Shown here in pieces: positions 42,599 through 62,808 of a stretch of DNA of 64,000 bases; position 1 is the stretch's first letter, and each line of letters opens with the position of its first letter. Origin of the DNA: Cyclobacteriaceae bacterium (GTDB lineage Bacteria; Bacteroidota; Bacteroidia; Cytophagales; Cyclobacteriaceae); the NCBI GenBank assembly GCA_016787725.1, contig JAEUTZ010000025.1:1-64000 (forward strand). The letters run 5' to 3'. The position numbers and the translations under genes were made by a program. Under the pieces are notes generated by a model. The model saw nothing but the letters and a program-made list of their open reading frames with translations, was not told the DNA's origin and ran no database searches.

Positions 42599-42623
42599 AT
42601 TAAAGCTAGACGTAAGAGACCGG

Positions 42624-46495: not shown

Positions 46496-47551
46496 TTATT
46501 TTATTGCATTTCCATATCCCACCACCAGTACCGAAAGCATAATGGTTGCAATGCCAATGATGATGGTAGTTTTTGTTTTCTTACTTACTCCCGTCCACTC
46601 CTTCAGCAGGATTCCCCAAACGTTAGCAATCAAAATGATGAAGGCCATGTGCAAAATCCAGGAACTTGCTCCGTTACCCAGTTTACTTTCCCCCATGCCA
46701 TAAAAGAAGAATTGCATAAACCAGGTTGTGCCCGCCAGGGCAGAAAAAAAATAATTTTTAGAAAGGGGAGTTTTACGATTGGTATAATCACCATACGTGC
46801 CATTGCGGGCATTGAGAATCATCGTCCAGATGAAGTTGGTAGCCAACCCCCCCCAAAGAAGTACGACATACGTAACGTTGTTTTGAAAGAGCGGATTTAA
46901 CCCCATGTTCACGGCCGCTTCGGCCATCGGTTTGCCGGCTTCAATACCAAAATTGAAACAGGAACTCAGTATACCCGAGGTGATCGCAACGAAGAGACCT
47001 TTCGTTAGATTGAATTCTGCAACACTTTTTTTCTTATCTTCTTCATTGAGGTCATTCTCTTTCATCATTCCGGCACGACCGCAGATGTATATCCCGACAA
47101 GGCAAATCACCACTCCGGCAAGCACAATAAGTCCCCAGGTGGTACTAAACATATCAACGATGCTGGTCTTACCGGTTGTTGGCACGAGGGCATAATAGAG
47201 AGACGGAACGATGGCTCCAAAGGCTGAACAGAAGCCCAATACAACAGAGTTACCCAGCGACATACCGAGATAGCGTACCCCCAGTCCGTACGTGAGCCCA
47301 CCAATACCCCAAAGTACGCCAAACAAGATGGTGTATTGGATAGTGGAAGCAGGGGCATTGCGAATGATTTCGGAGAACCCCGGCAGGGTAAACCACGCTG
47401 CCAGCGGGGGAACAATCAGCCATGAAAAAAGTCCACCGATAATCCAATAACTCTCCCAGGCCCACCCTTGTACCCGCTTGAATGGCATGTAAAAACTACC
47501 GGATGCAAAACCTCCGATAAAATGGAAAATGGTGCCGAGAATAACTTGCAT
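46496..47551 (-). CDS. rhaT: L-rhamnose/H+ symporter RhaT
   Basis: This 351-residue inner-membrane transporter has about ten helices and the family segments IFHFIGGFASGSFYMPFKRV, WESYWIIGGLFSWLIVP and LWGIGGLTYGLGVRYLGMSLG. E. coli RhaT has 344 residues. It is the first gene of the rhaT-rhaEW-rhaM-rhaI-rhaB-lutABC run. A terminator of the upstream TIM-barrel gene and a candidate operator lie between 47601 and 47655, so the operon should start from a promoter just upstream of rhaT. Confidence 0.95.
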   Translation of the reverse strand: MQVILGTIFHFIGGFASGSFYMPFKRVQGWAWESYWIIGGLFSWLIVPPLAAWFTLPGFSEIIRNAPASTIQYTILFGVLWGIGGLTYGLGVRYLGMSLGNSVVLGFCSAFGAIVPSLYYALVPTTGKTSIVDMFSTTWGLIVLAGVVICLVGIYICGRAGMMKENDLNEEDKKKSVAEFNLTKGLFVAITSGILSSCFNFGIEAGKPMAEAAVNMGLNPLFQNNVTYVVLLWGGLATNFIWTMILNARNGTYGDYTNRKTPLSKNYFFSALAGTTWFMQFFFYGMGESKLGNGASSWILHMAFIILIANVWGILLKEWTGVSKKTKTTIIIGIATIMLSVLVVGYGNAIK

Positions 47552-47600
47552 TCGGTAGAATTTAACTTTGAATTAAAGATAAGTAGATGCGGCAGGTAAG

Positions 47601-47620
47601 CCATCCTGTACTATCATGAA
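47601..47620 (-). promoter_or_regulatory. Candidate regulator site A (two TC(A/C)TG half-sites) before rhaT
   Basis: On the plus strand TCCTG (47604-47608) and TCATG (47614-47618) are 10 bases apart. Fifteen of nineteen aligned bases equal site B at 53858. The site lies 53 bases upstream of the rhaT ATG, and 23 bases upstream of a -7-like TATCTTTA (minus strand, 47581-47574), where a -33 element is expected. Confidence 0.55.
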
Positions 47621-47625
47621 CGGAG

Positions 47626-47655
47626 AAAAAAATGCCGGCTTTTAACCGGCATTTT
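47626..47655 (-). terminator. Rho-independent terminator of the TIM-barrel gene
   Basis: AAAATGCCGG (47629-47638) and CCGGCATTTT (47646-47655) form a perfect 10-bp stem with a 7-base loop. On the minus strand the stem is followed by about seven T. It lies 30 bases after the stop of the gene at 47685 and separates it from the rhaT operon. Confidence 0.88.
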
Positions 47656-47684
47656 GATGATTGATAGAATGATTTTTATACGAA

Positions 47685-48722
47685 TCAGCCCAGCGCTGCC
47701 TTGCAGAACTCCAGGCATTTCTTCACTTCATCGATGGGAGTAGAGCCTTCCGGTATTTTATACTCCAACTCAATGGTAGCCGGGAAGGTGTATTTATTGT
47801 CGCGCATTAAACGCAGCGCATCGGCAAGGGGTGTCTCTGCGGTACCCCAGGGTAAATTGTCACCACCATTGGCTTTTGTTTTGCGATCCTTCATGTGCAT
47901 ACTAACAATGCGGTCATGTTTCTGCTTGATAATGTCGAGTGGGTTGGTATTGCCAGCCGCTACGTAGTGCCCCAAATCAAGATTGAGTGCATTGGCCGGT
48001 GATTGGGACAGAGCGGTATCCCAGAACGTTGGCGTTTGTTGCTCATGACCGTGGTACCCCACCTTCAATCCATACTTTTCGGCAGCCTTTCCAAGTTTCA
48101 ACGTATGGGCATCGTTGCTGGGATGTTCCAAGGTTACGTGGGATGCGCCCAGAGCTTTGGCGGCACGCAATCCATAATCAATATCGGTATCGGTATTTTG
48201 CATGCCAAATGCGTCCGGTTTAAACGCGTAGATTTCGATGTCGGCTTTCTTATACATTTTGCTGAATTCCTCGAACTTGGACATGGGTGCATTCAATCTC
48301 CATTTTGCCATTTCTTCACGATACATTTTACCTTTTGCTTCCACATCGGCCAGTGTTTTCTTTTCTTCTTCGGTAAGTTCTTGCTTTTGCTGCCGTTTGC
48401 GCCAAAGGGGCATCAGGGTACGAAAATCAACCGGGTTTTTCGGAGCACCGGCAAATGACTCCGCAGGACCGCCCATTAGTTCAATGTTGGTGATGCCGCA
48501 CTGACGGATATAATCCAGGGTTGCTTCTGCACTTTGATCGGGCAGGTCGCGGAAGGAGTATGTTATTAAACCCAATCGCACGCCTTTAATAGTTGACCCC
48601 GACTTGCCCAGGTTGTTAATGAAATTAGGTACACCAAAACTGTCATAACTTGCCATCATCGATCCTGCGATGAGGGTGGAAGCAGCTCCGATAAATTGAC
48701 GTCTGGAAGTTTTGTTTTTCAT
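47685..48722 (-). CDS. Tat-exported sugar phosphate isomerase/epimerase-like TIM-barrel protein
   Basis: This 345-residue protein begins with a twin-arginine signal (KTSRRQFIGAASTLIAG). It continues as an AP-endonuclease-2-type TIM barrel: LGLITYSFRDLP, VTLEHPSND, KVGYHGHEQQ, LNLDLGHYVAAG, VSMHMKDRK, and a C-terminal IELEYKIPEG. Metal ligands Glu, His and Asp are apparent in these segments. Proteins of this type act in the periplasm of Bacteroidota sugar-degradation loci, often with unknown substrate, sometimes as 3-keto-glycoside enzymes. It is separated from rhaT by a terminator and follows GH3 by 50 bases, so it likely shares the GH3 transcript. Confidence 0.87.
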   Translation of the reverse strand: MKNKTSRRQFIGAASTLIAGSMMASYDSFGVPNFINNLGKSGSTIKGVRLGLITYSFRDLPDQSAEATLDYIRQCGITNIELMGGPAESFAGAPKNPVDFRTLMPLWRKRQQKQELTEEEKKTLADVEAKGKMYREEMAKWRLNAPMSKFEEFSKMYKKADIEIYAFKPDAFGMQNTDTDIDYGLRAAKALGASHVTLEHPSNDAHTLKLGKAAEKYGLKVGYHGHEQQTPTFWDTALSQSPANALNLDLGHYVAAGNTNPLDIIKQKHDRIVSMHMKDRKTKANGGDNLPWGTAETPLADALRLMRDNKYTFPATIELEYKIPEGSTPIDEVKKCLEFCKAALG

Positions 48723-48772
48723 GGGTTAATGATTTTAAATTCTAACTGGTTTTATGAACATACAATTTCGTC

Positions 48773-51094
48773 TTATTTTTTATACTTCGCTGTCCGCTCA
48801 TCATTAATTACACCCTTCCAGTTCAAACCAAAAGCAAAATCATATTTGTTACCCTGATCGTCTGTATGACATTCCATATCGTGGGGAACATCTTCGGCTT
48901 GTTTTTCCACCACCTGCATACTCGCAGGCATTTGAATCGGCAACAGGGCCGAGGGTTCAGCAGCACCGGTTATCATATCCAGCAGCGCCTGATCCTGTAC
49001 CGAAAAGTGAACCAAGATTGCATCGGCATTCTTTTCAAACTCTGAGAATACCATGGGATGACTCATTTTGATGGAAACAATGACCGGCTTGCCTTTCATT
49101 TTTTTGTAGGTATCATTAATCATGCCCAGGTCTGTGGTATTGGTAGCGGTACTCTTTTTGTTTTTGTAAGTGCGATTCGTAAAACTCTCAAGCGGATCGC
49201 CACCGGCTAAGCTCGTTTCACGGGCCTCCTTTGCGGTGTATTCCCCATATTGTAAAGAGACGGGTACGTAACCAGTACCCCCTTTTTTAACATCGGCTTG
49301 ATTATACCCAATGCCAGAATAAGGACTGTTAACGAATACCAGTGCCAAATCTGCCTCTTCGGGTTTGTCGGTTACGTTGAAATACTTTTTCACCACCTCA
49401 ATGTTCACCGGATATTCCAGCGTTTCCGGAGTCTCCATTCCTAAAAAGTTTCTGCCGGCCGGAGTAAACTTCTTGGGGATATATACAGTCTTATTTTTTG
49501 TTAACGGAAGCGCGTTGGCTTTATTCTTCAGCAGGACGATGGATTTCAATTGGGCCTCGTACCCCGCCTTCATGTATTCGGGTTTACCCACGATGGTCTT
49601 TGATTCTTCAGGATTCAGATAAGGGTTTTCGAAAAGTCCGGTGCGGAAAATATTCATCAGCAACCGAACTCCTGATTGCTCCATCCGGGCACGCATAAAT
49701 TCCTCACCATGTTCTTTCACGCCCATGTTGTAGGCTTCCAACACAGGTCCTTTCTCGTTATTGCCTCCAAATTGATCCACCCCCGCCATCAACAATTTAT
49801 AGTGTCGCTCGGCTACGGTAAGCTTTTCAACCCCCCAGGGCTTACCCCCAATGAACATATCTAATACCGTTTCATCTCCGGTCACACCCCAGTCCGTACA
49901 CACCACACCTTCATACTGATATTTGTCACGGAGCAAATCCTGAATGATATATTTGTTATAAGCATTGCCTACGTTTTCATTATTCTTGGTATCCTGATTA
50001 TAGGAGATGGTATAGTACGGCATTACCGCGGAAGCCATTTTTGTTTTTCCATTTAATTTGAAGGCACCTTCCGTAAACGGGATCATGTGCATGTCGAAAT
50101 TATTACCGGGATAAACGGCATACTTTCCGATGGCATAATGGGCATCGCGTCCGGCTTCACCGGAACCACCCCCAGGCCAATGCTTCACCATGGCATTTAC
50201 GCTTTCATACCCCCAACCATCGCTGATCTCTTTATCACCCGATGACGTCTGAAAACCATCGATATAAGCCCGGCCCATATCGGCCGATAGTTGAGGGTTT
50301 TCACCGAAAGTACCATCGACCCGTAACCAGCGAGGTTCCGTAGCAATATCTACTTGAGGCGAAAGTGCGGTTGCAATGCCCAACGCCCGATATTCTTTCG
50401 CAGCAATCTTTCCAAAGGTTTCTATCAAGCCCGGATCGAAGGTAGCGGCCATTCCCATCGAACTAGGCCACATCGAAATTCTGCCGCCAGCACCTTCATT
50501 GTATTCCGTATTGGCAACGGTGCCGTGCCGTGGGTCCGAGCTGGTGTTGCTGGGGATTCCCAGACCGATGCCTTCCACCAGGGCCTGCATATTGTTATTC
50601 CATTGTGCTGCCACTTCTGGGCTTTCCACCGATGTTATCAATACATGTCGCAGATCATCTTTGGTTAAAAATTCTTTTTGCTGATCAGAAAGATCAGAAG
50701 CTGCCGCCCCGCTTTCGCTAAAGGATTTTCCATTATAGGTAGCAGCAAAGAAGCCCCGATTTTGTGCCGGTATAGATTGGTGCCGGCTATACAACATGAG
50801 CCCGGCAATTTGTTCTACGCTCATTTTTGAGGCGAGATCTTTTGCGCGATCCACCGCGGGTAAGCGCCAGTCCTCATACGGGTCCAGCTGATTGTTTTTG
50901 TTCAGGTCTTTAAACCCGAATCGGTCTACCGTCAGAATTGTGATGCCGGAGGAAGTTGAGTAGCCCAAGGTTTTGCCACCTTCATTTGTTACGATTTTTA
51001 TGCCATTCGATTCTGTCTCTGTCCATTTGGGTCCACAACCAACGGCAATCATCAGCAGTAGACTGGACAATGAAATTTGTACAACGTGCTTCAT
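48773..51094 (-). CDS. Glycoside hydrolase family 3 lipoprotein
   Basis: This 773-residue enzyme has a lipoprotein signal (C20 in MIAVGCG). The GH3 N-terminal barrel follows, with KHWPGGG (K304/H305) and the nucleophile D401 in VVCTDWGVTG. The C-terminal alpha/beta domain holds IVLLKNKANALPL, the usual GH3 segment, and LVFVNSPYSG. GH3 enzymes are retaining beta-glucosidases, beta-xylosidases or related exo-enzymes. In this locus it may remove a terminal sugar linked to rhamnose, such as glucose in flavonoid or plant glycosides. It is an outer-membrane or periplasmic lipoprotein. Confidence 0.92.
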   Translation of the reverse strand: MKHVVQISLSSLLLMIAVGCGPKWTETESNGIKIVTNEGGKTLGYSTSSGITILTVDRFGFKDLNKNNQLDPYEDWRLPAVDRAKDLASKMSVEQIAGLMLYSRHQSIPAQNRGFFAATYNGKSFSESGAAASDLSDQQKEFLTKDDLRHVLITSVESPEVAAQWNNNMQALVEGIGLGIPSNTSSDPRHGTVANTEYNEGAGGRISMWPSSMGMAATFDPGLIETFGKIAAKEYRALGIATALSPQVDIATEPRWLRVDGTFGENPQLSADMGRAYIDGFQTSSGDKEISDGWGYESVNAMVKHWPGGGSGEAGRDAHYAIGKYAVYPGNNFDMHMIPFTEGAFKLNGKTKMASAVMPYYTISYNQDTKNNENVGNAYNKYIIQDLLRDKYQYEGVVCTDWGVTGDETVLDMFIGGKPWGVEKLTVAERHYKLLMAGVDQFGGNNEKGPVLEAYNMGVKEHGEEFMRARMEQSGVRLLMNIFRTGLFENPYLNPEESKTIVGKPEYMKAGYEAQLKSIVLLKNKANALPLTKNKTVYIPKKFTPAGRNFLGMETPETLEYPVNIEVVKKYFNVTDKPEEADLALVFVNSPYSGIGYNQADVKKGGTGYVPVSLQYGEYTAKEARETSLAGGDPLESFTNRTYKNKKSTATNTTDLGMINDTYKKMKGKPVIVSIKMSHPMVFSEFEKNADAILVHFSVQDQALLDMITGAAEPSALLPIQMPASMQVVEKQAEDVPHDMECHTDDQGNKYDFAFGLNWKGVINDERTAKYKK

Positions 51095-51184
51095 TTTGGT
51101 AGAGGTTTATTTTTTTAGGTTAATTGTAAACAGGAAGCTGCAGTTCATCCTTAACAACAGACCTGTGTATAATTAGCACAACGT

Positions 51185-51223
51185 TCGATAAATTCCAATG
51201 AGATTTGATGTCGAATCTATCGA
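51185..51223. repeat. Inverted repeat between esterase and GH3 genes
   Basis: TCGATAAATTC (51185-51195) and GAATCTATCGA (51213-51223) are an inverted repeat of 11 bases with one mismatch and a 17-base spacer. There is no T-run on either side, so it is not a standard terminator. It lies about 90-130 bases upstream of the GH3 start and 61 bases after the esterase stop. It may be a regulator site or an RNA hairpin. Confidence 0.5.
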
Positions 51224-51283
51224 TTGGCAGGAATACTCGACCAATCCTGAATTTTGGGACTTCGACTCAAGTATTCACATCAG

Positions 51284-52879
51284 TTATTTTTGTTTCAATG
51301 CCTCCGAAATAGCTTTCTCCACCAACGGAGCCATCACTTTATAACCTTCCAAGGTTGGATGCACACCATCGTATCCCAGTTCTTTTTTGAGTCCGTTGCG
51401 CTCATCCTTCATGGTGGTATGATAATCGAGGTACACGAGTTTGTTTTTATCCGCATACGCTTTAATCATTTTATTCAGTGCAACTACTTTATTAGCCGGC
51501 TCCATGCCGGGTCGCCAAGGAAAATCGTAAGCCGGAATTATTGAACACAACACAGCCTTAATGCCGTTGGCTGTTGCCAGTTGCGCCATCGTAACAATGT
51601 TATCGCGGGTTTGCTCCAACGTCATCGGCCCGGTATTCCCTGCGATGTCGTTAATGCCCGCCAGGATTACCACTACTTTTGGTTTTAAATCAATCACATC
51701 TTGTTTGAAGCGCAACACCATCTGGGGTGTGGTTTGACCGCTAATACCGCGGTTGATATAAGGTTTGCCTTCAAAAAATGAAGGATCTGCTTTACTCCAG
51801 CCCTCGGTAATGGAGTTGCCCATGAACACCACCCGGTTTTCATTTGCCTTCGGTAACCCCACTTTTTTATTGTCTTCCTGGAATCGTTTCAGGTTGGCCC
51901 AGTCCATAGGGGGTTGATTAAAATTTTTCTTTATCCAGCGCAGGCAGGCATCCATCCACTGCTCTTTGGCAGCCGGGTTGTTCATGCCAAACCCGTGTTT
52001 TCCACTTGCATAGATAAAGGTTTCTACCGGCACGTTGTTTTGTTGCAAGGCGGCAACAAAGGCAAAGGTATTACCCACGGGCACCACCTGATCTGTTAAT
52101 GGTGCTGTTATAAAAGTAGGTGGAGTTTTTGACGTTACCTGCAGTTCGTTTGAGAAGTTGGCAATGTCGGCATCCGTCATGCCAAGTTCCTTGTACTTTT
52201 TAGAATCTTTAATTACGGGGGAAGACGTAACACCACCAATCAGGTTGATGCGCGAACCATTGTGCGTAAGGCTGTCGGAAAAACTGATCACCGGGTAATT
52301 TAAAATCATGAAATCCGGACGAAGACTGGTATTGTTTGGATTATCGATATACGATTTCTGAAAATGCGTGCCGGCTGTAGAAGCCAGATGACCGCCTGCG
52401 GAGGAGCCCATGATGCCAATTTTGTTGGGGTGGATATTCCATTGCTTTGCGTTTTCACGCACTACCAGAATGGCGCGTTGTGCATCCTGCAATGGACCGA
52501 TACTTTTGTCTTTCATCGTCTCCTTGCGGGGAAGGCGATACTTCAAAACAAACGCAGCGATGCCATCTTCATTCAATCGCTTCGCCACATCTCTTCCTTC
52601 ATGACTCATCGCAAGAATGCTATAACCACCACCCGGGCAAATTATTACTGCAGAGCCGGTAGCTTTTGCCGGATCCGGCAGAAATACAGTAAGAGTGGGC
52701 CGCACCACACCGCGAAGTATTTCAATCTTATTATCACCCGTTCCGTAATAGGTGGTGGCTGTATCAATGGGGGTGGATGCTTTCAATGAATTCGGGATCT
52801 CACCTTTATAGAGTGGAATTTCCTGTTGTGCAATTGCAATTCTTGAAATAAGAAGAAGGAGAATGATTATTTTTTTCAT
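51284..52879 (-). CDS. Two-domain esterase: alpha/beta hydrolase fused to SGNH hydrolase
   Basis: This 531-residue exported protein starts at the ATG of a signal peptide (MKKIIILLLLISRIAIA); 37 codons of open frame upstream are ignored. The first half is an alpha/beta hydrolase (BD-FAE/xylanase-esterase type): oxyanion ICPGGGYS, nucleophile elbow GIMGSSAGGH, His near GKHGFGMN. The second half (about residues 330-531) is an SGNH/GDSL hydrolase: block I VFMGNSITEGW, block III AGINDIAGN, block V DGVHPTLEGY. Both halves probably remove acetyl or other acyl groups from plant polysaccharide or glycosides, helping the rhamnosidases. The next gene upstream encodes a relative of the first half only. 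Confidence 0.9.
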   Translation of the reverse strand: MKKIIILLLLISRIAIAQQEIPLYKGEIPNSLKASTPIDTATTYYGTGDNKIEILRGVVRPTLTVFLPDPAKATGSAVIICPGGGYSILAMSHEGRDVAKRLNEDGIAAFVLKYRLPRKETMKDKSIGPLQDAQRAILVVRENAKQWNIHPNKIGIMGSSAGGHLASTAGTHFQKSYIDNPNNTSLRPDFMILNYPVISFSDSLTHNGSRINLIGGVTSSPVIKDSKKYKELGMTDADIANFSNELQVTSKTPPTFITAPLTDQVVPVGNTFAFVAALQQNNVPVETFIYASGKHGFGMNNPAAKEQWMDACLRWIKKNFNQPPMDWANLKRFQEDNKKVGLPKANENRVVFMGNSITEGWSKADPSFFEGKPYINRGISGQTTPQMVLRFKQDVIDLKPKVVVILAGINDIAGNTGPMTLEQTRDNIVTMAQLATANGIKAVLCSIIPAYDFPWRPGMEPANKVVALNKMIKAYADKNKLVYLDYHTTMKDERNGLKKELGYDGVHPTLEGYKVMAPLVEKAISEALKQK

Positions 52880-52944
52880 GACAATGCTTGCATTAAATAT
52901 ATATGGTTGAACAATCCGTTCTGAATGTGAATTAGAATCAAAAA

Positions 52945-53807
52945 TCAGAATCCATGCATACTTAACCAATCTGTAAACCGGTCTATCCATGTATCTGTGG
53001 GCAGATTCTTTTTGTTCATTCCAAATCCATGTCCACCTCTTTCATATATGTGCAGTTCAGCCTGTTGATTTGCTTCAAACCATTTGGAGTACACATTCAC
53101 ACTATGGCTTGCGAGCCCCAATTCATCATCACTGGCGGCTACAATGAAAATGGGTGTTTTCGCAGTGGGCACAGCGGATCCAATTACAGCTTTTTCATAA
53201 AGGTAAATGGGCGCTACAAAATTCGGACGGTTTCATCAGTAGCACTATACACTACAGACATAGTTACGGTGCCACCGGCAGAGAACCCCATGAATCCGAT
53301 TTTGCTGGGATTAATTTTATACTCCTTTGCATGCTCGCGCACGTATTTCATAGCCGTTAATCCATCCTGTAGAGCAAGTTTTACCACAGGCGCATTAATC
53401 GAATCCAGCTTTATGAAGTTGCGTGTGGCCATCAAAGTCATCAAGCTATTCTCTGGTTTGGATGGATCGCTGTGGACTAGTCTGTATTTCAAAACAAAGA
53501 CTGTGATTCCTTTTTCATTTAGTTTCTTTGCCACCTGGTTTCCTTCACTTTCAATCGATAAAATATGAAAAGCTCCACCCGGTGCAACAATAATGGCTGT
53601 GCCATTGGGGTTGTCAGGAATGAAAGGAGTGAGGGATGGTTTTGAAACATCTACTACCAACACATTTCCATTGGCATTGATGGTTTGTTCTGACCAGGTC
53701 CAGTTTTCAGAACCCGGTGCAACACTCGGATATAAGGCAATCTCCTTTGGTTGCGCGGTGCAATTGAATCCAATAACTAATCCTGCAAGGGTCAATAGCT
53801 TTTTCAT
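52945..53807 (-). pseudogene. Alpha/beta hydrolase gene with a single-base frameshift
   Basis: Two frames together make one hydrolase. Residues 1-197 (53807-53214) have a signal peptide (MKKLLTLAGLVIGF...), oxyanion VAPGGAFH and nucleophile GFMGFSAGG. They run into a stop right after ATDETVRIL. One base earlier in phase, the frame continues RPNFVAPIYLYEKAVIGSAV and then PTAKTPIFIVAASDDELG and GGHGFGMN, with the catalytic Asp and His. The full span is 863 bases, one short of a multiple of three. The paralogue at 51284 reads RPDFMILNYPV at this place, which fixes the break at about 53220-53240. It is either a real inactivating deletion or an assembly error. The codons are otherwise intact. Confidence 0.85.
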
Positions 53808-53854
53808 GGCGGTTTGGTAATACTATTCTCAAATCTCGTTAGTTAAGTCATAAA

Positions 53855-53877
53855 ACTATCATGTACTGTCCTGTAAC
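53855..53877 (-). promoter_or_regulatory. Candidate regulator site B (TCATG-N5-TCCTG)
   Basis: On the plus strand TCATG (53859-53863) and TCCTG (53869-53873) are 10 bases apart, with flanks AAACT before and TAAC after. It lies 52 bases upstream of the frameshifted hydrolase ATG (minus) and 57 bases upstream of the CehA-like gene (plus). A -7-like GAGATTTG on the minus strand (53837-53830) lies 22 bases away. Confidence 0.55.
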
Positions 53878-53933
53878 TCAAATCGGGGGTTATAAGCGGT
53901 TATTATTATCTTTCGAAGTTTTATGGGTAAATC

Positions 53934-55142
53934 ATGACAACGATAATGTTTCAATTTGTACTTCTCCTGATTGGATCATTTCTGATGGCTTGCAATTCCT
54001 CCGAGACAATGCAACCGACCTGGTACAAAGGCAATCTGCACACCCACACCTACTGGAGCGATGGCGATGAGTTTCCGGAACTGGTGCTGGAGTGGTACAA
54101 ATCCAGCGGCTATCATTTCGTTGCCTTATCGGACCACAACACCCTGGCGCAGACTGAGAAGTGGAAACTCATTGCGAAAAGCCCGCTTTACGAAGCAAGT
54201 TTCCAGAGGTATCTGGAGAAGTTCGGAAAGGAGTGGGTTGAATACAAAACCGATACGGGTCGCATTCAGGTGAAATTGAAGACCTACCAGGAATACAAAA
54301 GTAAAATGGAAGAGGCGGGTTTTCTGATCATTCCAGCGGAAGAGATTACGAACAATGTGAACAATATGCCCGTGCATATCAATGCCACCAACTTGCAGGA
54401 GTTAATTACCCCACCCAATTCGACTACAGTAGCCGAGACGATGCAACTATCGGTTGATGCGGTATTGCAACAACGAGAAAAGACCGGTGTGCCCATGTTT
54501 CCGCACATCAATCATCCCAATTTTTATTGGGCGATTACCCTCGATGACATGATTAGTTTAAGAGGTGAACAATTCTTTGAGGTATATAATGGTCATCCAC
54601 TGGTACGGAATTATGGCGATTCCCTCCATCTGGATACAGAGAGAATGTGGGACTTGATCAATATGGCTTATGCCAGACGCAAACAACCTTTGATGTATGG
54701 ATTGGCCACGGATGACAGTCATAATTATCATCAATTTGGCGAGGCCTTCAGCAATGCAGGCAGGGGTTGGGTGATGGTAAGAGCCGAGAAATTGGATGCG
54801 GCTGCGCTGATTGCCGCTATGGAAGCGGGTGACTTTTATGCCTCTACCGGAGTAACCCTGCGTGAAGTTTCGTTTGAAAATGATGAGTTGAAAGTTGAAA
54901 TAGCCACAGCTGAAGGCGTGAACTACAAGATTGAATTCATTGGTGTTTTGAAAAATGAAAATGAGTCGCGCGTGTTGAAGTCAATAGAGGGTGTTGAGGG
55001 AAGTTTCAATGTAACCGATGAATATCTTTTTGTGCGTGCCAAAATAACCTCCAGTAAACTTCAGACAAATCCTTTTCAGGAAGGTGATTTTGAAAGCGCG
55101 TGGACGCAGCCCGTCTTTAAAAAAGTAGGCAACAGGCAGTAG
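53934..55142 (+). CDS. CehA/McbA-type PHP-domain metallohydrolase, lipoprotein
   Basis: This 402-residue protein has a lipoprotein signal (C20 in SFLMACN). The PHP-like metal site includes H36 and H38 (GNLHTHTYWSDGDE), D67-H68 (VALSDHNTLAQ), a later His in MFPHINHPNF and LATDDSHNYHQF. Members of the CehA/McbA group hydrolyse ester, carbamate or phosphoester bonds, and many are uncharacterised. It is the only plus-strand enzyme gene inside the rhamnoside cluster. It is divergent from the frameshifted hydrolase, with site B in the 126 bases between them. It converges with GH78. Confidence 0.87.
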   Translation: MTTIMFQFVLLLIGSFLMACNSSETMQPTWYKGNLHTHTYWSDGDEFPELVLEWYKSSGYHFVALSDHNTLAQTEKWKLIAKSPLYEASFQRYLEKFGKEWVEYKTDTGRIQVKLKTYQEYKSKMEEAGFLIIPAEEITNNVNNMPVHINATNLQELITPPNSTTVAETMQLSVDAVLQQREKTGVPMFPHINHPNFYWAITLDDMISLRGEQFFEVYNGHPLVRNYGDSLHLDTERMWDLINMAYARRKQPLMYGLATDDSHNYHQFGEAFSNAGRGWVMVRAEKLDAAALIAAMEAGDFYASTGVTLREVSFENDELKVEIATAEGVNYKIEFIGVLKNENESRVLKSIEGVEGSFNVTDEYLFVRAKITSSKLQTNPFQEGDFESAWTQPVFKKVGNRQ

Positions 55143-55156
55143 TACTCGGCAGTAGT

Positions 55157-57865
55157 TTATTTCTTCACTACAAAACTATACTTGCCCGAGCCCACCTCCA
55201 ACCGGATATAGTTCCCTTCCTTTCCTTTCACCATAATTTCTTTCACGACAGATAAGGCTTTACCCGATTCAGAAATAGTATCAGCAGCAGAGGCAGGAAC
55301 ATAAATCGTTGCCTTGGTATTCGCTGGAATTTCCACATCAAAATCAACGGTTTGTTCATTTGTCTTCCATGCAGATTTTACTAAACCATATCCGGTTTTG
55401 TATTCGGATGCGGCCTGCGTCAACCGGGTATCCAGGTGGGGTTTAATCACAATGGATTTATAACCCGGAGCAGCCTCTTCCGTATCGATGCCGGTGGCTA
55501 CACGATACATCCAATCGCCAATCGCGCCATAGGCATAGTGATTAAAGGAGTTCATGCCCGGAGTCTGAAAAGAACCATCGGGTTTAATGCCGTCCCAGCG
55601 TTCCCAGATGGTGGTGGCGCCCATCTTCACCGGGTATAACCAGGATGGATATGTTTCTTGCAGTAATAAGGTATAGGCAACATCCGTATAGCCAAACCGG
55701 GTAAGCACATGACACAAATAAGGTGTGCCCAGAAAACCTGTGGTAAGGTGATTGCCATAGCTTTTTATATTCTCAACCAATTTCTCCGCGGCATAGGCCC
55801 GAAGATTATCAGGGAGCATATCAAAATTCAATGCCAATACATAGGCGGTTTGCGTACTACTCACAAGTCTCCCATTGGCAGTCATGTATTCTTTCATGAA
55901 TGCATCCTTAATATTTTTTAACAGAGCAGCGTACTTTGCTGCATCGTCTTGCTTGCCCAACACGTTCGCAGTCTTGATCACCAACTCGGTGGAATGGGCG
56001 AAGAAACACTGCGCAATCAAATACTTGTCCGTCACTGCGGAGCGACCATCGTTATCATCAAAAGGCCTATAGAATAACCAATCGCCAAAGTGAAATCCTT
56101 TGTTCCATAAATAATTGGTGCTGTTGCGTTCCATAAAGCCGACCCAGGCTTTCATGCTGTTGTATTGATCTTCCAGAATTCGCTTGTCACCATAGGCGAG
56201 ATACATGTTCCAGGGAATGATGGTAGCCGCATCGGCCCAACCGGCAGAACCTGCGGCCCGGGCACCAAGTACATTGGGTACTACAAACGGAACGCTGCCA
56301 TCAAGTTGATCGGCCTCTACATCTTTCAACCATTTTGCAAAGAAGTTGTGCACATCAAAATTGAAGGTAGCGGTTCGGGCAAAAGCCTGCGCATCCCCTG
56401 TCCAGCCCAGCCGCTCATCGCGTTGTGGGCAATCGGTAGGTACATCCAAAAAGTTACCACGCTGCCCCCATTGAATGTTGTGCTGCAGTTGATTGATGAG
56501 GGGATGGGAGCTCACGAAGGTTCCGGTAGGTTGCATATCCGAGTATAATGCCACTGCAGTGAAGTTCTCAGGCTTGATTTCGCCCGGATAGTCTTCAATC
56601 TTAATGTAACGGAATCCCTGAAAGGTGAAGTGGGGTTCAAAAAACTCTTCACCGTTTCCTTTCAGGATGTATTCGTTTTTCTGTTTGGCCGGACGAAGGT
56701 TTTCTGTGTAAAAGTTCCCCTCTTTATCCAACACCTCAGCATGGTAAAGCGTGATCTTATCTCCTGCTTTACCGGAGATTTTCACCTGCACCCAACCTAC
56801 GAGGTTCTGGCCGAAGTCCAGGACTCGCTCGCCTTTTGGTGTGGTGATGGACTTAATCACCTTGAACGTTTCTTTCTTGCGAATGGGCTCGTTGTAGGTG
56901 GCGATGAGTGGGGGCGTGCCGCTTGACTTTATTTTTACACCTTGCCAGTCTCCATCGTTGAAGGAAGCAGTATTCCAGCCAATTTTCTCTTTACGGGCAT
57001 CGATGGTTTCGCCATGGTAGATTTCAGAACTCACGATGGAGCCGGTGCTTGATTTCCAGGATTCATCAGTAATAAGGGTTTCTTTCGTACCATCCGCATA
57101 TTGAATTTCAATCTGAGCGAGCAACGCGAGTTCCTTTCCGTAATAATTCTTCTGGCCGGAGAAGCCAATGAAACCGCGATACCAACCACTTCCCAAGGCA
57201 ACACCAATCGCATTGGTGCCTGAAGTCAAAAGCGCAGTAACATCATAGAGTTGATACTGCAGTCGTTTATTGTAACTGGTCCAGCCCGGGGTAAGGTAAG
57301 CATCACCTATGCGTTTGCCATTGATAAATGCTTCGTATAAACCGAGGGAAGTAATGAAAGCGGTGGCGGAAGCAATCTTCTTCGTAGTACTAAATGTTTT
57401 TCTAAAGTAAGGACTTGGCTGATTGATTGTGTCCTCTTTGAAGCCGGGTTGAATCCATTTTGCTTTCCAGTCGGAAGGATTTAACAATCCCATTTGCCAG
57501 AAATTTGCTTCGGTCCACGCTGAAGCTTTTCCTGTATTATCCCAGACGCGCACCTGCCAGAAATATTTCTTTCCGGATTGAAGAGGCGCACCGGCAAAAC
57601 TAACATATTGCGACTGATCGGAGGTAACCTTTCCACTGGCCCACACATTCGCTTTAGAAAGTGCTGCCTGCGAATTGCTTACCCGGATTTCATAGGCGGT
57701 TTGCATCACATTTCGCTTTTCAGAAACCAGTTGCCAGCTGAAGCGAGGTTGTACATCCACCCCCAACGGGTTCTTTTGATTCTCGGTAAGCGGATTTTTT
57801 ACACTCACCTGCGCCCATACGATTGAAGCATGCAGCAATAGCGAAAGAAGGAGGAGCTTTTTCAT
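55157..57865 (-). CDS. Alpha-L-rhamnosidase, GH78
   Basis: This 902-residue exported enzyme (signal peptide MKKLLLLSLLLHASIVWAQ) has a fibronectin-like N-domain (about residues 25-130) and the Bac_rhamnosid_N domain (about 160-330, GDAYLTPGWTSYNKRLQYQL). A beta-sandwich domain precedes the (alpha/alpha)6 catalytic barrel (about 440-800). The barrel carries the acidic signature DCPQRDERLGWTGDAQAF, and the aromatic and acid residues NKGFHFGDWL and GATTIWERWDGI. It is an inverting enzyme that releases terminal L-rhamnose from flavonoids, saponins or rhamnogalacturonan. The product feeds the rhaT operon next door. Confidence 0.94.
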   Translation of the reverse strand: MKKLLLLSLLLHASIVWAQVSVKNPLTENQKNPLGVDVQPRFSWQLVSEKRNVMQTAYEIRVSNSQAALSKANVWASGKVTSDQSQYVSFAGAPLQSGKKYFWQVRVWDNTGKASAWTEANFWQMGLLNPSDWKAKWIQPGFKEDTINQPSPYFRKTFSTTKKIASATAFITSLGLYEAFINGKRIGDAYLTPGWTSYNKRLQYQLYDVTALLTSGTNAIGVALGSGWYRGFIGFSGQKNYYGKELALLAQIEIQYADGTKETLITDESWKSSTGSIVSSEIYHGETIDARKEKIGWNTASFNDGDWQGVKIKSSGTPPLIATYNEPIRKKETFKVIKSITTPKGERVLDFGQNLVGWVQVKISGKAGDKITLYHAEVLDKEGNFYTENLRPAKQKNEYILKGNGEEFFEPHFTFQGFRYIKIEDYPGEIKPENFTAVALYSDMQPTGTFVSSHPLINQLQHNIQWGQRGNFLDVPTDCPQRDERLGWTGDAQAFARTATFNFDVHNFFAKWLKDVEADQLDGSVPFVVPNVLGARAAGSAGWADAATIIPWNMYLAYGDKRILEDQYNSMKAWVGFMERNSTNYLWNKGFHFGDWLFYRPFDDNDGRSAVTDKYLIAQCFFAHSTELVIKTANVLGKQDDAAKYAALLKNIKDAFMKEYMTANGRLVSSTQTAYVLALNFDMLPDNLRAYAAEKLVENIKSYGNHLTTGFLGTPYLCHVLTRFGYTDVAYTLLLQETYPSWLYPVKMGATTIWERWDGIKPDGSFQTPGMNSFNHYAYGAIGDWMYRVATGIDTEEAAPGYKSIVIKPHLDTRLTQAASEYKTGYGLVKSAWKTNEQTVDFDVEIPANTKATIYVPASAADTISESGKALSVVKEIMVKGKEGNYIRLEVGSGKYSFVVKK

Positions 57866-58019
57866 GGGTGAAATTATTAATACGTATAGAACCTGATTTA
57901 TTAACAGTCAGCTTATGTTGCGCAAAATATCCACGCACCTGTCTGACAGATCGAAGGCGATTAGATAGTAGTATGGTTTCCGACAGCGCTCAATTGAAAA
58001 TTTATTTGGTTTGCGTACA

Positions 58020-59297
58020 TCAATTATTAAGGGCCTGGTACACCTGTACCTTAAAGGTTTGGTCAACATCTGCCCCGTGTTCGCCCCACATTTGGCGATA
58101 GAGTAAAACCACCATTTTTTCTTTCGGGTCAACCCAATAGGTGGTTGCGAAAGCTCCGCCCCAGGAGTACGTACCCACATTGTGCGGAAACTTACTGCTC
58201 CCTTCTTCCGTCACCACAAGAAATCCAAGCCCAAATTTGTTTTCACCTAAACTTAAATCCCCAATTTGGTTCATGGTCATCATCCGAACCGTGTTTGGTG
58301 CCAACAATCGGGTGCCATTAAGTTCACCTCCATTCAAAAGCATTTGCAGGAACAAGGCATAATCATAGATCGTTGAAGATAGCCCGCCACCGCCTGAAAA
58401 GTATTCTTTCTTTTTTACAGGATAAATCATTTCCAATTCTCCGAATGCTTTATCCTGAATCTTCAATCCAGTAGAATCTTCTTGATAGAAGTTAACCAAC
58501 CGGCTGGCTTTCTCTTCTGGCACATTAAAGTAAGTGTCCTGCATACCCAACGGTTGAAAAATTCGTTGAGCAAAGAATTCATCAAGGGACATCCCTGACC
58601 AGATTTCCACCAGGTATCCCAGCAAGTCGGTATTCAATCCGTACGTCCATTTTTCTCCCGGGTGATGAAGCAAGGGCAACCTTCCTAATCGATTCATCGC
58701 TTCCGATAATTTATGGTCATGCACATCGAGGCCACCCGTGACGTTATTTTTGGCATAAATGGCAGTAGCTTCCGGACTTCCTATCGTAGCATAATCGATA
58801 CCCGAAGTGTGGGTGAGCAAATCACGGATGGTGATGGCCCGTTTGGCAGGAAGGGTTGTGTACGTAGTATCCTTTGAATTAAACTTGTCCAGGACCCGGG
58901 CGTTTTCAAATGCCGGGATATATTTTGAAACCGGTTCATCGAGCAGAAATTTCCCTTCTTCCCATAACATCATCACGGCTACACTCGTGATTGCCTTTGT
59001 CTGTGAGGCAATCCGGAAGATTCCATCTTCCCTCAGGGCCTCTTTGGTTTCCAGATTGTTAAAGCCTACTGCTTTATGGTACACGATTTTTCCCTCGCGG
59101 GCGATAAATCCGGCTGCGCCATTAATCCAACCCTGCTTAACCCAGTTATTCAGGGTGCTATCCAACCGAGCCAGGCGCACACTGGAAAAACCGGCCGCTT
59201 CGGGTTTAACAATCTTTAAGCCTTGTTCAGTCTGGGCGATTTCGCCTGTGCAGGATACAAGAAGTACGATGAGTACAAGGGACACAAATCGATTCAT
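58020..59297 (-). CDS. Serine hydrolase, class C beta-lactamase/esterase family, lipoprotein
   Basis: This 425-residue protein starts at the ATG of a lipoprotein signal (MNRFVSLVLIVLLVSC, C16). The serine beta-lactamase-like fold shows S98-x-x-K101 (RIASQTKAIT), the Y-x-N motif in WTYGLNTDLLGY and the H-x-G segment NVGTYSWGGAF in place of KTG. The family includes esterases (EstB type), D-aminopeptidases and penicillin-binding relatives. In this locus an esterase acting on acylated rhamnosides is more likely than a beta-lactamase. It starts 31 bases after the GH106 stop, so the two are cotranscribed. Confidence 0.88.
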   Translation of the reverse strand: MNRFVSLVLIVLLVSCTGEIAQTEQGLKIVKPEAAGFSSVRLARLDSTLNNWVKQGWINGAAGFIAREGKIVYHKAVGFNNLETKEALREDGIFRIASQTKAITSVAVMMLWEEGKFLLDEPVSKYIPAFENARVLDKFNSKDTTYTTLPAKRAITIRDLLTHTSGIDYATIGSPEATAIYAKNNVTGGLDVHDHKLSEAMNRLGRLPLLHHPGEKWTYGLNTDLLGYLVEIWSGMSLDEFFAQRIFQPLGMQDTYFNVPEEKASRLVNFYQEDSTGLKIQDKAFGELEMIYPVKKKEYFSGGGGLSSTIYDYALFLQMLLNGGELNGTRLLAPNTVRMMTMNQIGDLSLGENKFGLGFLVVTEEGSSKFPHNVGTYSWGGAFATTYWVDPKEKMVVLLYRQMWGEHGADVDQTFKVQVYQALNN

Positions 59298-59328
59298 AGG
59301 AAAAGGTAGTTTGTACAAGATACTCTTT

Positions 59329-62300
59329 TTATTGTTTTGGGCTTACTTGATTTAGGGTAACCGGACCGATAAGTCCGGATTCAATCAATTTTGAGCTGCC
59401 ACCTCCAAAGCGCAGGCCTGCACCCGATAGGATTTTGCTATTCGGATTGGCCATGTCGCCCGTTATCCGGTTGGTCCATTGATTGGTTACTTTCACGTCA
59501 ATTTTGTTCACACCTTGTTTCAAGGCCGAAGTGATGTTGATCTGATACGGCAGCTTCCAAAGGGTGCCAATTGATTTTCCGTTAATACTGATTTCGGCCA
59601 GGTCTTTTACAATGCCAAGATCAAGCATGAATTTTGAACCCGGTTTTGAAAACCATTCTTTGCCCACCGTGAATTCTTTCGTGTAGGTAGCGGTGCCTCC
59701 GAAATATTTAACACCCTCATCAGCATGTTCACTGAGAGAAATCAATTTGTCCAGCGTAATCTTTTCAGGAGCACCGAGCTGGGGCGGAAAGGTCACATTC
59801 CAGCCTTCATTCAATACTGTAACTTGATTGGTTGCCGAGGTTGCCTTCTTGAAGGAAAGAATGGTAGTTGGTTTAGAAAATACAATAAATACGGATTCCT
59901 CCGGATTAAACTCGTAAGGAACAGTCGTGATTCCATTTTCGATGGTATAATCAGCCGGCTCAATCAACCCGCTGTCCGCATGCCAGAGTTCAGGAGTTCT
60001 GCCGTTAATGCGGAATTCGAGGTTTACATTTTCTTTCTGGTTGCGCAGGTTGGAAATGAAATAAATGTCGGCATCCGAAGTCTTGCGATGAATCCAACTC
60101 AAGTACGTATTGGTGTTAGGTTTCGTGTAATCAACATCCTTCCTTACGTTCAATTCTGCAAGTATGGAAACCAAAGGGATGCCCCAATAGACATGCCCTT
60201 TTCCGTAGGGATGGTGGTACACCAGCTGACCGTCCGCATCCCCCCATACTTCATTGGCTAGGGTCTCTATTTCCGAGTCTACGGTGGGATAGCCGGAAAG
60301 GCTTGGTGATTTCATTGGTTTTGGACCTACTATGGTGGCTCCTTCTGCAACAAGTGCTTTTACCTTTTTCAGAACTGCGGGTGTCATTTCTGGCACTTCA
60401 GGAAGTACAAGCACGCGATACTGCATCCCACTCTGCAGAACGACATTTCCATTGACTACGGTTGCATCTTCCAGCAGAATATCCGTACCTAGAAAATCAT
60501 AATCATAGCCAGCCGGTGGTTCGGGTTTAATCTTTTTCCAATATGGAACAGCCGATGGAATGCCTTCGCCCAGGTAATAGGCAATATCCGCAACGAAAGT
60601 GCCTTGTTGCAATAAATAGCTGTTGCGTGAAAGATAGGTAGTGAATGGAAGCGCCTGTTCGGCCCAGGTAATATTGCGATGAATATGCGTGCCCACCATC
60701 GCGTTGCCGGGTTTGGTATCCAGCGGTTGATGAGTAGACGTATGAAAGATGAATCGGTTCACGCCTTGCGTGTTCCAGTAATCACCAATTAGTTTCATGG
60801 AAGCCGGTGACTCAAAAGCTCCACCCGTCCAGGATTCGGTAGCCACGAATTTCTTTCCATAGATGTGGGCGGCTGATGCAGCTTCGCGAATGTCAGACTG
60901 ATGCGCATGCAGGCGATCACCCGCACCGCGGTAGGCGTGATCATCATCTAAATCTTTTGGCGATTTCCAGCTACTGCCTTCGGCCGAACCTAACCCTTGG
61001 GTCATCCCAAATTCACCCATCGGTATGTCCAGGTATTTTTTGTTCAGCATGGCATCCTGCATAATGGGCAAGGAGATGCCAGCCGACTCGCCATAGAGTT
61101 TAATACCTTCGGCTCGTGCCAGATCGCCCAACGCTTTGTAATGGTTCTCCGCAAGCAGGTCTGCAATCGTTCGTCTGAAGTCCCAGAGAAAACGATCGCT
61201 GACTTCAGCGCTTTTCACGATGCGTCCACTGAGCACGGGCAAATACGGAGTCAGGTCATACCCTCTTCGCTTTAAGAATTCAGCGGGAAGGTCTTCGGTC
61301 CAGTTTTGTGCATCAGCTTCAAAACTGTCGGTGAGCCAGTATTGCATGCGTTTGCCATACAGGGAACCCAGCGCCTTCGCGATGGGAGTAGTGTACCCTT
61401 TATAATACGATTCCAGATGTTTTTTACTCAGTTTATCTACCTCATAGCCCACTCCGGCCGGTACAGCCGGGCTGTTCTTTGAACCGGTTAGAGAATACCC
61501 CATTCTGACAATAGTCCAGTTGCCGGCAGGTACATCCCACGTCAGTATGCCATCGGCTTTCATCTTTTCGGTAACATCTATTACATCGGTTATCGCTGAG
61601 CTTTCAGGTACACGTGTTGTGGCCAGTGCTTCCAATTCAAACATGGGGGCAAAGTGGGCTTTGTCTTCCCATCGATTCACACGGGCGTCACTGTAAAATT
61701 TTGCTTCCGTGACTGTATACGTAGTAGGCGCTGGTCCGAAGTACCCGGGCGTTCCAAAATTTCCAACGGTGGTAAGTCCGGAGCCACCGGTGAACGTGAT
61801 GCGGAAGTAACGCGCACGTACTTCCGGAAAGGTATAGGTGCGCACGGGCAAGGCACGGATGTCGTGTTGTGGGCCGGGCAGCGATAAAATGGTTCTAAAG
61901 GTTACACCATCGTCACTCACCTGAACATACCCGGTAGTAACATCTTTGCTGCCAAAACCTTGTGTTAATTCAGTGGCCAAGGCAAAGGATTGAGCCTTGA
62001 ACGGTTGGTTAAATTCAAATTGTATCCAGCTGTGCGATTCTGGTTTTGGAAGAGATAGTGTGATGCCACTGGTAAGATCATCATCGAGCAGCGCGCTTGC
62101 ATCAATGGCTCCGGCACTGGAGGATACGCTGGGTTTCAGATCCATCATGTTCACTTCGTCTTTCGGGGTACGAAAGGCAAGCACTTTATAGTCGGCATAC
62201 AGGGTAGGCTCAGGGTTGGCAACGGATAAAAATCCTCCCGGCCGGCTCAGGTTGCGAATCGGCCCATTGTTGGATGGTGGAGCAGGAAGTTTACCGGTAA

Positions 62301-62742
62301 ACTTTTTTCCACCTGTAATTTTCAATTCACTCCACACTACTTTCTTGATGGCTTCTTCGGGCTTCACCCAGGGGCCCCCGGTTTCACTCCAGCCCGCTGA
62401 AGTCACCATGGTCATTTCCAGTCCGAGCCGCTCTGCTTCCGCAGCTGTATGGCGAATGGCATCCAACCACTCGGGTGTCATGAATACGATTTTTTTTTCA
62501 ACGGTTTGTCCCATTCCAAGGCTCACATCAAAAGCCTGAAAGCCACCAATCCCAGCCCGTTTCATCCACTCCAGATCTTTGGTGATTCCTTCTTTGGTGA
62601 TGTTGCTACCGATCCAATGCCACCAGGTGCGGGGCTTGGCTTCGTCCGGTGGATTTAGGAAACCGGTTTTGAGATCATCGGTCGGTTGGGCAAGTGCGGC
62701 TAGACTGAAAAACACAAACGAACAGATACTTGCTAGTTTCAT
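59329..62742 (-). CDS. Alpha-L-rhamnosidase, GH106
   Basis: This 1137-residue exported enzyme starts at the ATG of a signal peptide (MKLASICSFVFFSLAALAQ); a 17-codon extension is discarded. The N-terminal segment PPDEAKPRTWWHWIGSNIT and TKDLEWMKRAGIGGFQAFDV are GH106 hallmarks. A long TIM barrel with inserted beta-sandwich (about residues 210-330, a discoidin-like module with HSWIQFEF) and C-terminal beta domains follow. GH106 enzymes cleave alpha-1,2 or other rhamnosyl linkages in rhamnogalacturonan II, rutinosides or ulvan-like glycans. It is the first gene of a unit with the serine hydrolase. Its start is 48 bases downstream of candidate site C. Confidence 0.93.
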   Translation of the reverse strand: MKLASICSFVFFSLAALAQPTDDLKTGFLNPPDEAKPRTWWHWIGSNITKEGITKDLEWMKRAGIGGFQAFDVSLGMGQTVEKKIVFMTPEWLDAIRHTAAEAERLGLEMTMVTSAGWSETGGPWVKPEEAIKKVVWSELKITGGKKFTGKLPAPPSNNGPIRNLSRPGGFLSVANPEPTLYADYKVLAFRTPKDEVNMMDLKPSVSSSAGAIDASALLDDDLTSGITLSLPKPESHSWIQFEFNQPFKAQSFALATELTQGFGSKDVTTGYVQVSDDGVTFRTILSLPGPQHDIRALPVRTYTFPEVRARYFRITFTGGSGLTTVGNFGTPGYFGPAPTTYTVTEAKFYSDARVNRWEDKAHFAPMFELEALATTRVPESSAITDVIDVTEKMKADGILTWDVPAGNWTIVRMGYSLTGSKNSPAVPAGVGYEVDKLSKKHLESYYKGYTTPIAKALGSLYGKRMQYWLTDSFEADAQNWTEDLPAEFLKRRGYDLTPYLPVLSGRIVKSAEVSDRFLWDFRRTIADLLAENHYKALGDLARAEGIKLYGESAGISLPIMQDAMLNKKYLDIPMGEFGMTQGLGSAEGSSWKSPKDLDDDHAYRGAGDRLHAHQSDIREAASAAHIYGKKFVATESWTGGAFESPASMKLIGDYWNTQGVNRFIFHTSTHQPLDTKPGNAMVGTHIHRNITWAEQALPFTTYLSRNSYLLQQGTFVADIAYYLGEGIPSAVPYWKKIKPEPPAGYDYDFLGTDILLEDATVVNGNVVLQSGMQYRVLVLPEVPEMTPAVLKKVKALVAEGATIVGPKPMKSPSLSGYPTVDSEIETLANEVWGDADGQLVYHHPYGKGHVYWGIPLVSILAELNVRKDVDYTKPNTNTYLSWIHRKTSDADIYFISNLRNQKENVNLEFRINGRTPELWHADSGLIEPADYTIENGITTVPYEFNPEESVFIVFSKPTTILSFKKATSATNQVTVLNEGWNVTFPPQLGAPEKITLDKLISLSEHADEGVKYFGGTATYTKEFTVGKEWFSKPGSKFMLDLGIVKDLAEISINGKSIGTLWKLPYQINITSALKQGVNKIDVKVTNQWTNRITGDMANPNSKILSGAGLRFGGGSSKLIESGLIGPVTLNQVSPKQ

Positions 62743-62784
62743 GGAGGTGGTATTTTGAAACAAGGTAAATGCCGTGCTTGGGGA

Positions 62785-62808
62785 AACTGTCATGCTCCAT
62801 CCTGTGAG
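62785..62808 (-). promoter_or_regulatory. Candidate regulator site C (TCATG-N5-TCCTG)
   Basis: On the plus strand TCATG (62790-62794) and TCCTG (62800-62804) are 10 bases apart. The flank AAACT and the following TGT match site B, as does the C in the middle of the spacer. It lies 48 bases upstream of GH106 (minus) and 93 bases upstream of the GntR-type gene (plus). A -7-like TACCTTG (minus, from 62767) lies 23 bases away. Confidence 0.55.

Follow-up and report, generated by a model that had tools for sequence, protein, structure and literature searches.

Tandem CAKGAYRG repeats as probable operators of a GntR-family rhamnose regulator in Cyclobacteriaceae and related Bacteroidota

Three copies of a head-to-tail repeat in the rhamnose locus of a Cyclobacteriaceae bacterium are, with a probability of about 0.73 on comparison of sequences, operators of a GntR/LacI-sensor protein encoded in the same locus, which would act as a rhamnose-responsive activator of three transcription units. 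The window, meaning the whole stretch of DNA analysed, comprises 64,000 nucleotides (assembly GCA_016787725.1, contig JAEUTZ010000025.1, positions 1 to 64,000). The sites, all on the minus strand, are site A (47601..47618, CATGATAGTACAGGATGG), a 10-bp tandem repeat upstream of the L-rhamnose/proton symporter gene rhaT (46496..47551, minus strand); site B (53856..53873, CAGGACAGTACATGATAG), upstream of a frameshifted hydrolase gene; and site C (62787..62804, CAGGATGGAGCATGACAG), between a gene of glycoside hydrolase (GH) family 106 and the divergent GntR gene. On this strand, that of the target genes, all three read CAKGAYRG-NN-CAKGAYRG, two boxes standing head to tail and 10 bp apart (CATGATAGTA and CAGGATGG in A, CAGGACAGTA and CATGATAG in B, CAGGATGGAG and CATGACAG in C). 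The proposed cognate regulator, encoded at 62883..63914 on the plus strand, has 343 amino acids, with a GntR winged helix (PF00392) and a LacI-type sensor (PF13377). The repeat, its conservation, its position and its link to the GntR gene are matters of observation and form the established part of the assignment.

The initial annotation described each site as two TC(A/C)TG half-sites on the plus strand, and these are present at 47604-47618 (TCCTGTACTATCATG), 53859-53873 (TCATGTACTGTCCTG), and 62790-62804 (TCATGCTCCATCCTG); the extent of the repeat was understated, the full unit being the 18-mer on the gene strand. The shorter pattern, TC(A/C)TG-N5-TC(A/C)TG, matches four times in the window, at the three sites and at 18910 on the opposite strand. 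The 18-mer pattern, itself derived from the three window sites, has exactly three perfect matches in the 4.2-Mb genome, namely sites A, B, and C, and not the many equally good matches elsewhere that would by the annotation's own terms have refuted it; the reversed pattern has no perfect match in the same genome. When up to two mismatches are allowed there are 68 matches in the genome against 31 for the reversed control, and near-matches alone therefore mean little. Thirty of the 68 were examined, comprising the three sites and 27 near-matches; all 27 near-matches lie within open frames of at least 150 codons, and none of them has TAnnTT at 17-21 nt. A matrix trained on 51 perfect sites from relatives, the window's three included, scores sites A, B, and C at 23.9-27.8, and the next best position in the 64 kb at 5.8. 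Site C is flagged as in-frame because the GH106 open frame extends through it, but the GH106 start is likely to be at 62742, where an N-terminus resembling a signal peptide was judged by eye. A weaker variant that had been noted before the GH3 gene, at 51132-51146, was ruled out as an operator, the best matrix score in that stretch being -15.5.

Conservation was examined in 80 loci (1.40 Mb in total) that have a GntR ortholog at 59-70% identity and whose record titles name members of the Cytophagales, Chitinophagales, and Sphingobacteriales. The 18-mer pattern has 48 matches in 45 of these loci, and the reversed pattern and each of 30 permuted-unit patterns have none. Matrix scores of at least 12 are reached by 83 matches in 58 of the 80 loci, versus 22 matches in the reversed sequence, and scores of at least 16 by 67 versus 4; these matrix counts are not independent of the matrix, as the pattern counts are. 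In broader samples the pattern occurs at 99 places versus 5 for the reversed pattern (family sample, 197 genomes) and at 43 versus 7 (class sample, 395 genomes). Chance similarity or a non-regulatory repeat would have in its favour that near-matches with one or two mismatches are common, with 65 in the genome, but the 27 of these that were examined lie in open frames without a -7 box, the permuted patterns give 0 matches against 48, and the spacing from the repeat to the -7 box is fixed; this explanation is hardly credible.

The genes downstream of 51 sites are rhaT in 38 cases, rhaD in two, GH78 in two, GH106 relatives in two, the window's hydrolase in one, and six unmatched to window proteins, so that sites stand upstream of rhamnose transport and catabolism genes in several species. 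The conservation upstream of rhaT and GH106 orthologs that the initial annotation had looked for is thus found in the regulator loci, where 45 of 48 rhaT starts have a site scoring at least 9 and where rhaD, GH78, and GH106 relatives are also preceded by sites. Each of the three misses is particular: in L143 a perfect site is present at 9897 and the rhaT start is misplaced, in L198 there is a weak variant of the site with a -7 box at 19 nt, and in L131 the site stands before GH78 instead of rhaT. The number of boxes is not always two; locus L305 has three 10-bp boxes in a run before rhaT (163-190), and in locus L091 a SusC-like gene is preceded by two 18-mers that stand 23 bp apart (1501-1541).

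Promoters of Bacteroidota have a -33 element, and the placement of the repeat is best read against it. Of the 45 rhaT promoters, 37 have a TAnnTT whose start is 19 nt past the repeat, seven have it at 18 nt, and one at 20 nt; when the set is dereplicated by spacer similarity, 31 of the 35 promoters left are at 19 nt. Identity between the 45 promoters is 80% in the site and 61% in the -7 box, versus 32% in the 19-nt spacer. Among 74 pattern matches outside genes in the family genomes, TAnnTT is at 19 nt in 24 and at 20 nt in eight, and each other offset from 10 to 29 nt has 0-4. In Flavobacterium psychrophilum the sigma-A -7 box spans -12 to -5, according to the available portion of PMC9723704, and since TAnnTT lies at 18-20 nt the repeat would run from about -49 to about -32 around a centre near -40 and cover the place of the -33 element, where its second box falls. 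TTG is found 15-25 nt before the TA in only 4 of the 45 rhaT promoters, a figure that has no control count beside it. The site is accordingly at a fixed distance over the -35/-33 region, as in promoters of class II type, and this placement suggests an activator, in agreement with the initial annotation's proposal of an activator site common to the units of the rhamnose locus.

The same operator and the same GntR protein could instead serve repression, the protein blocking polymerase over the -33 region until released by rhamnose. This reading is kept as a rival because of the habit of the family: AraR and similar GntR/LacI-sensor regulators are repressors, and among the solved relatives that a sequence search gave are domains called YvoA repressor and arabinose repressor. 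A blocking site, however, needs no exact spacing, and all 45 promoters keep 18-20 nt across an unconserved spacer, with the scarcity of TTG at a -33-like distance also speaking for activation; repression is rated lower because of the fixed spacing and is considered unlikely. An alternative sigma factor is not favoured, since the box downstream is an ordinary TAnnTT. A sigma-70 promoter scan was uninformative for the window because the promoters of Bacteroidota differ.

The symmetry of the repeat is direct, with an identity of 0.86 between boxes across 45 sites, versus 0.29 for an inverted alignment about the centre and 0.52 at the best axis, which rules out an inverted-repeat reading; if GntR binds these sites, they depart from the inverted repeats that are usual, though not universal, for the family. 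In 40 loci with GntR homologs the layout was also sought without regard to sequence, as any tandem repeat of 10-bp period with TAnnTT 18-20 nt downstream. At a threshold of at least 6/8 there are 62 overlapping matches, versus 10-18 for periods of 9 and 11-15, but many of the 62 are one CAGGA-type repeat in shifted register and some are AT-rich noise; at least 7/8 is reached by 18 versus 0-4, and 8/8 by 0 versus 0-1.

The regulator itself scores 38.5 bits for PF00392 (cut-off 27) and 29.2 bits for PF13377 (cut-off 26.5), and its predicted fold has two domains, with a mean predicted local distance difference test (pLDDT) value of 88.7 and a recognition helix at residues 57-69. It has the AraR-like layout of an N-terminal GntR winged helix and a C-terminal periplasmic-binding-protein-like domain, and lacks the aminotransferase-like sensor of MocR proteins, whose models match only about the first 90 residues and far below cut-off. 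The initial annotation named this protein, and it appears to be the best candidate binder, to judge by how the motif tracks its gene in the family sample and by how the type of site goes with the recognition helix. In 34 of 45 cases no more than 250 bp separates the site from the GntR gene. In the family sample the motif is carried by 45 of the 94 genomes that have a long match to GntR versus 8 of the 103 that have none (Fisher p = 1e-10), and by all 11 genomes with the closest GntR orthologs. Of the 99 places, 97 were read: 73 of 89 lie outside genes in genomes with GntR, versus 1 of 8 in the others. Seven of these eight places, all in genomes without a long GntR match, fall inside genes, and all eight lack TAnnTT at 18-20 nt.

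In the class sample, by our own tally, the motif is present in 13 of 42 genomes with GntR versus 23 of 353 without (p = 1.4e-5). Class-wide rhaT promoters, again by our own tally and with 30 of 38 places read, score at least 9 in 16 of 24 genomes with a GntR protein of at least 40% identity versus none of six with no match or a match of 35-37% (p = 0.005). The corresponding count for the Cyclobacteriaceae sample, also our own, covers 29 of 39 places and includes rhaT relatives below 50% identity that may not be rhaT: where GntR is at least 59% identical a rhaT site is found in 6 of 8 genomes, the other two scoring 6.1 and 3.4 with the box at 20 nt, and no rhaT site is found in the three genomes without a long GntR match or the two with a 32% match. 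An unlinked regulator of another family, of the DeoR, AraC, or OmpR/PhoB type, might bind the repeat, with GntR a mere neighbour. PhoB-type activators do use tandem boxes in place of the -35, and the motif is carried by the 23 class genomes without GntR. DeoR-type rhamnose regulators have direct repeats with a 10-11 bp period, as described in the accessible part of PMC3870299. The sites nonetheless adjoin the GntR gene, the motif follows that gene in the family sample and at class-wide rhaT promoters, and the type of site shifts with the GntR recognition helix, albeit in three loci only, which leaves an unlinked regulator quite improbable and well behind repression by GntR itself.

The evidence from the recognition helix concerns residues 61-62, which lie in predicted helix 57-69. 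Of the 150 GntR loci read, among which some genomes appear twice, 136 have Glu-Lys at this pair of positions. Three loci have Leu-Gln, Leu-Thr, or Met-Leu at these positions and adjoin genes for an epimerase, an aldose 1-epimerase, and a galactokinase. All three of these non-Glu-Lys loci have the palindrome CYRGT-N4-ACYRG, against 2 of the 136 with Glu-Lys. A loose direct repeat no more than 1.5 kb away is a poorer discriminator, being found also in one of the three (L364) and in only 66 of the 136. A change of site type together with the recognition helix fits GntR as the reader of the site, the cases being few. The three loci in question (L361, L363, and L364), whose GntR homologs are at 36-37% identity, had come up in the search for the tandem layout but proved to have a palindromic CYRGTA-NN-TACYRG beside the GntR gene, with galactose-type neighbours (GalE-like epimerase, aldose 1-epimerase, galactokinase), and this looks like a separate GntR galactose regulon. 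These palindromes show that the tandem layout does not extend to the whole family, and the comparison suggests that it is a property of one GntR branch.

Several points weigh against the assignment of the sites to an activating GntR protein. The 80 loci were collected by way of the GntR gene, so that adjacency of site and gene there is partly a result of selection, although the family and class scans were not so collected. A matrix match of at least 12 is missing from 22 of the 80, and in 21 of those 22 the flanks retrieved contain no rhaT start. The motif-bearing class genomes without GntR, 23 in number, count here as well, as do the 8 of 24 class genomes with GntR that score below 9 at rhaT; three of those eight (L238, L248, L249) show a diverged repeat with TAnnTT 19 nt beyond it, as read by eye. 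In the Cyclobacteriaceae sample, where the best GntR match is 35-46% identical, the rhaT promoter scores at least 9 in only 4 of 16 genomes, and in two genomes of this group (G016, G090) the site precedes a gene that is SusC-like by eye and close to rhaT. Conservation at rhaT therefore holds for the closest orthologs and is patchy among more distant carriers of GntR. Site B has no good -7 box, and no TAnnTT was found at 17-21 nt from it. The predicted interdomain linker is short (residues 84-92), and head-to-tail binding would need a real rearrangement. Finally, the related GntR/LacI-sensor proteins AraR and FucR are described as repressors. GntR proteins also generally bind inverted repeats (PMC5320631, in the portion available).

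If the sites are operators of an activating GntR protein, a dimer would place its two winged helices head to tail, each on one CAKGAYRG box, with the boxes offset by one helical turn and the pair covering about -49 to -32. Rhamnose or an intermediate of its pathway would bind the sensor and bring about the activating state, and the protein, adjoining the -7 box in place of the -33 element, would touch or recruit RNA polymerase directly at target promoters that would have a -7 box and no evident -33 box. From the layout we infer GntR binding, its head-to-tail arrangement, activation over repression, the inducer, and the extents of the operons.

Site A has a -7 box (TATCTTTA, 47574..47581, minus strand) 19 nt after it and would switch on unit A, with rhaT, rhaD, and perhaps the isomerase, kinase, and lactate-oxidation genes, all on the minus strand. 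The rhaD-type gene (44335..46446), for a bifunctional rhamnulose-1-phosphate aldolase/dehydrogenase, is 49 bp after rhaT and would belong to the unit. The L-rhamnose isomerase-like gene (42624..43898), whose match is below the curated cut-off, is separated from rhaD by a 436-bp gap, and its membership is uncertain; next to it is a gene for a sugar kinase of the rhamnulokinase/xylulokinase kind (41273..42640), also below curated cut-offs. Genes matching LutA/LutB-type lactate-oxidation models lie downstream of the rhamnose genes (38580-41271), a position that would fit lactaldehyde or lactate arising from rhamnose.

Site B is followed at 18 nt by a weak -7-like box (GAGATTTG, 53830..53837, minus strand) and would switch on unit B, again on the minus strand. 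Its first gene is the N-terminal part of an alpha/beta hydrolase (53214..53807) broken by a frameshift, with its first 197 residues encoded in one frame and the remaining fold continued in another, across 52900-53807. The broken hydrolase would be followed in the unit by an esterase with BD-FAE and GDSL lipase domains (51284..52879), a GH3 glycosidase (48773..51094) without a site of its own, and, as the last gene, a xylose-isomerase-like TIM-barrel protein (47685..48722). Between unit B and site A is a terminator-like hairpin followed by a T-run (47629..47655, minus strand; -15.6 kcal/mol, z -6.0), which the sigma-70 consensus scan did not list. Site C has a -7 box (TACCTTGT, 62760..62767, minus strand) 19 nt after it and would switch on unit C, comprising the GH106 alpha-L-rhamnosidase (59329..62742), an esterase-like protein of beta-lactamase fold (PF00144) 10 bp after it (58020..59318), and probably, 154 bp further on, the GH78 alpha-L-rhamnosidase (55157..57865), all on the minus strand.

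In relatives the sites reach other genes. One genome of the Cyclobacteriaceae sample (G101) has six sites within 37 kb of the GntR ortholog (C41:149384-186562), and downstream of five of the six are a GH88-family hydrolase gene, a gene for the rhamnogalacturonan lyase RGL11, a GH31 gene, and the genes for two SusC-like receptors; because of these neighbours the regulon appears to extend to rhamnogalacturonan. In four loci with a GntR protein of about 40-46% identity (L371, L374, L378, and L044) the site precedes a gene whose product shares GMYAGEH(A/T)AGTEFVIGPLF, and in two of them (L371, L044) this gene adjoins rhaD. A Pfam search of two such products (L371, L378) gave no match; the product is perhaps an alternative rhamnose transporter.

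Among known systems, Bacillus subtilis AraR, a GntR/LacI hybrid, has the same two-domain layout, and the domain named arabinose repressor was matched by sequence; AraR is a repressor on inverted repeats, unlike the tandem site here. In the pho box of PhoB, tandem boxes about one turn apart replace the -35 of the activated promoter, as proposed here, but PhoB is a response regulator with an 11-bp period and a proteobacterial -35/-10 promoter. The MocR subfamily (GabR, PdxR, TauR) also has a GntR winged helix, and many of its members bind direct repeats and several activate; MocR proteins differ in their aminotransferase-like sensor with pyridoxal 5'-phosphate, in repeats two or three helical turns apart rather than one, and in their target genes (PMC5320631, same portion). 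FucR (BT1272) of Bacteroides is likewise a GntR-family sugar regulator in Bacteroidota (PMC3878776, as excerpted), but it serves the fucose operon, and the likeness noted here is that of the protein family. Rhamnose regulators in print are of the AraC, DeoR, and LacI types, as far as the excerpted text of PMC3870299 goes. Of these, RhaR of Bacteroides thetaiotaomicron activates rhamnose catabolic genes in the same phylum (PMC3870299 and PMC3878776, in the parts available), as the GntR protein would do here, but RhaR is of the AraC family, and the predicted AraC-type motifs are direct repeats with a 21-bp period (PMC3870299, same part) versus 10 bp in the present sites. The DeoR-family RhaR resembles the present system in its rhamnose regulon and its imperfect direct repeats with a 10-11 bp period, but it is a DeoR protein with a different sequence, and those DeoR proteins tested were repressors (PMC3870299, same part). 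A search of an open-access library, with RegPrecise and subscription journals outside its scope, found neither a rhamnose regulator of GntR type nor this motif described. The system thus looks like a sugar regulon of ordinary kind, but with a regulator type that would be new for the rhamnose pathway and an unusual operator.

It is somewhat favoured that activation is the rule in a whole Bacteroidota branch of GntR/LacI-sensor regulators, whose members would bind two boxes head to tail, one turn apart, where the -33 element would otherwise lie; the papers searched describe no such layout for GntR proteins. On the same reading, many Cytophagales, Chitinophagales, and Sphingobacteriales would rely on this layout for their rhamnose and rhamnogalacturonan regulons. 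Bacteroidota rank among the major degraders of polysaccharides from plants and algae, and for only a few of the sugar regulators in the phylum are the sites known. The present analysis offers, for rhamnose use in three orders, a precise operator together with a predicted regulator, a predicted sign, and a predicted promoter distance, and it suggests a compact rhamnose-inducible promoter layout for these bacteria. If the proposal is true, a winged-helix family best known for repression from palindromes can activate from a tandem site.

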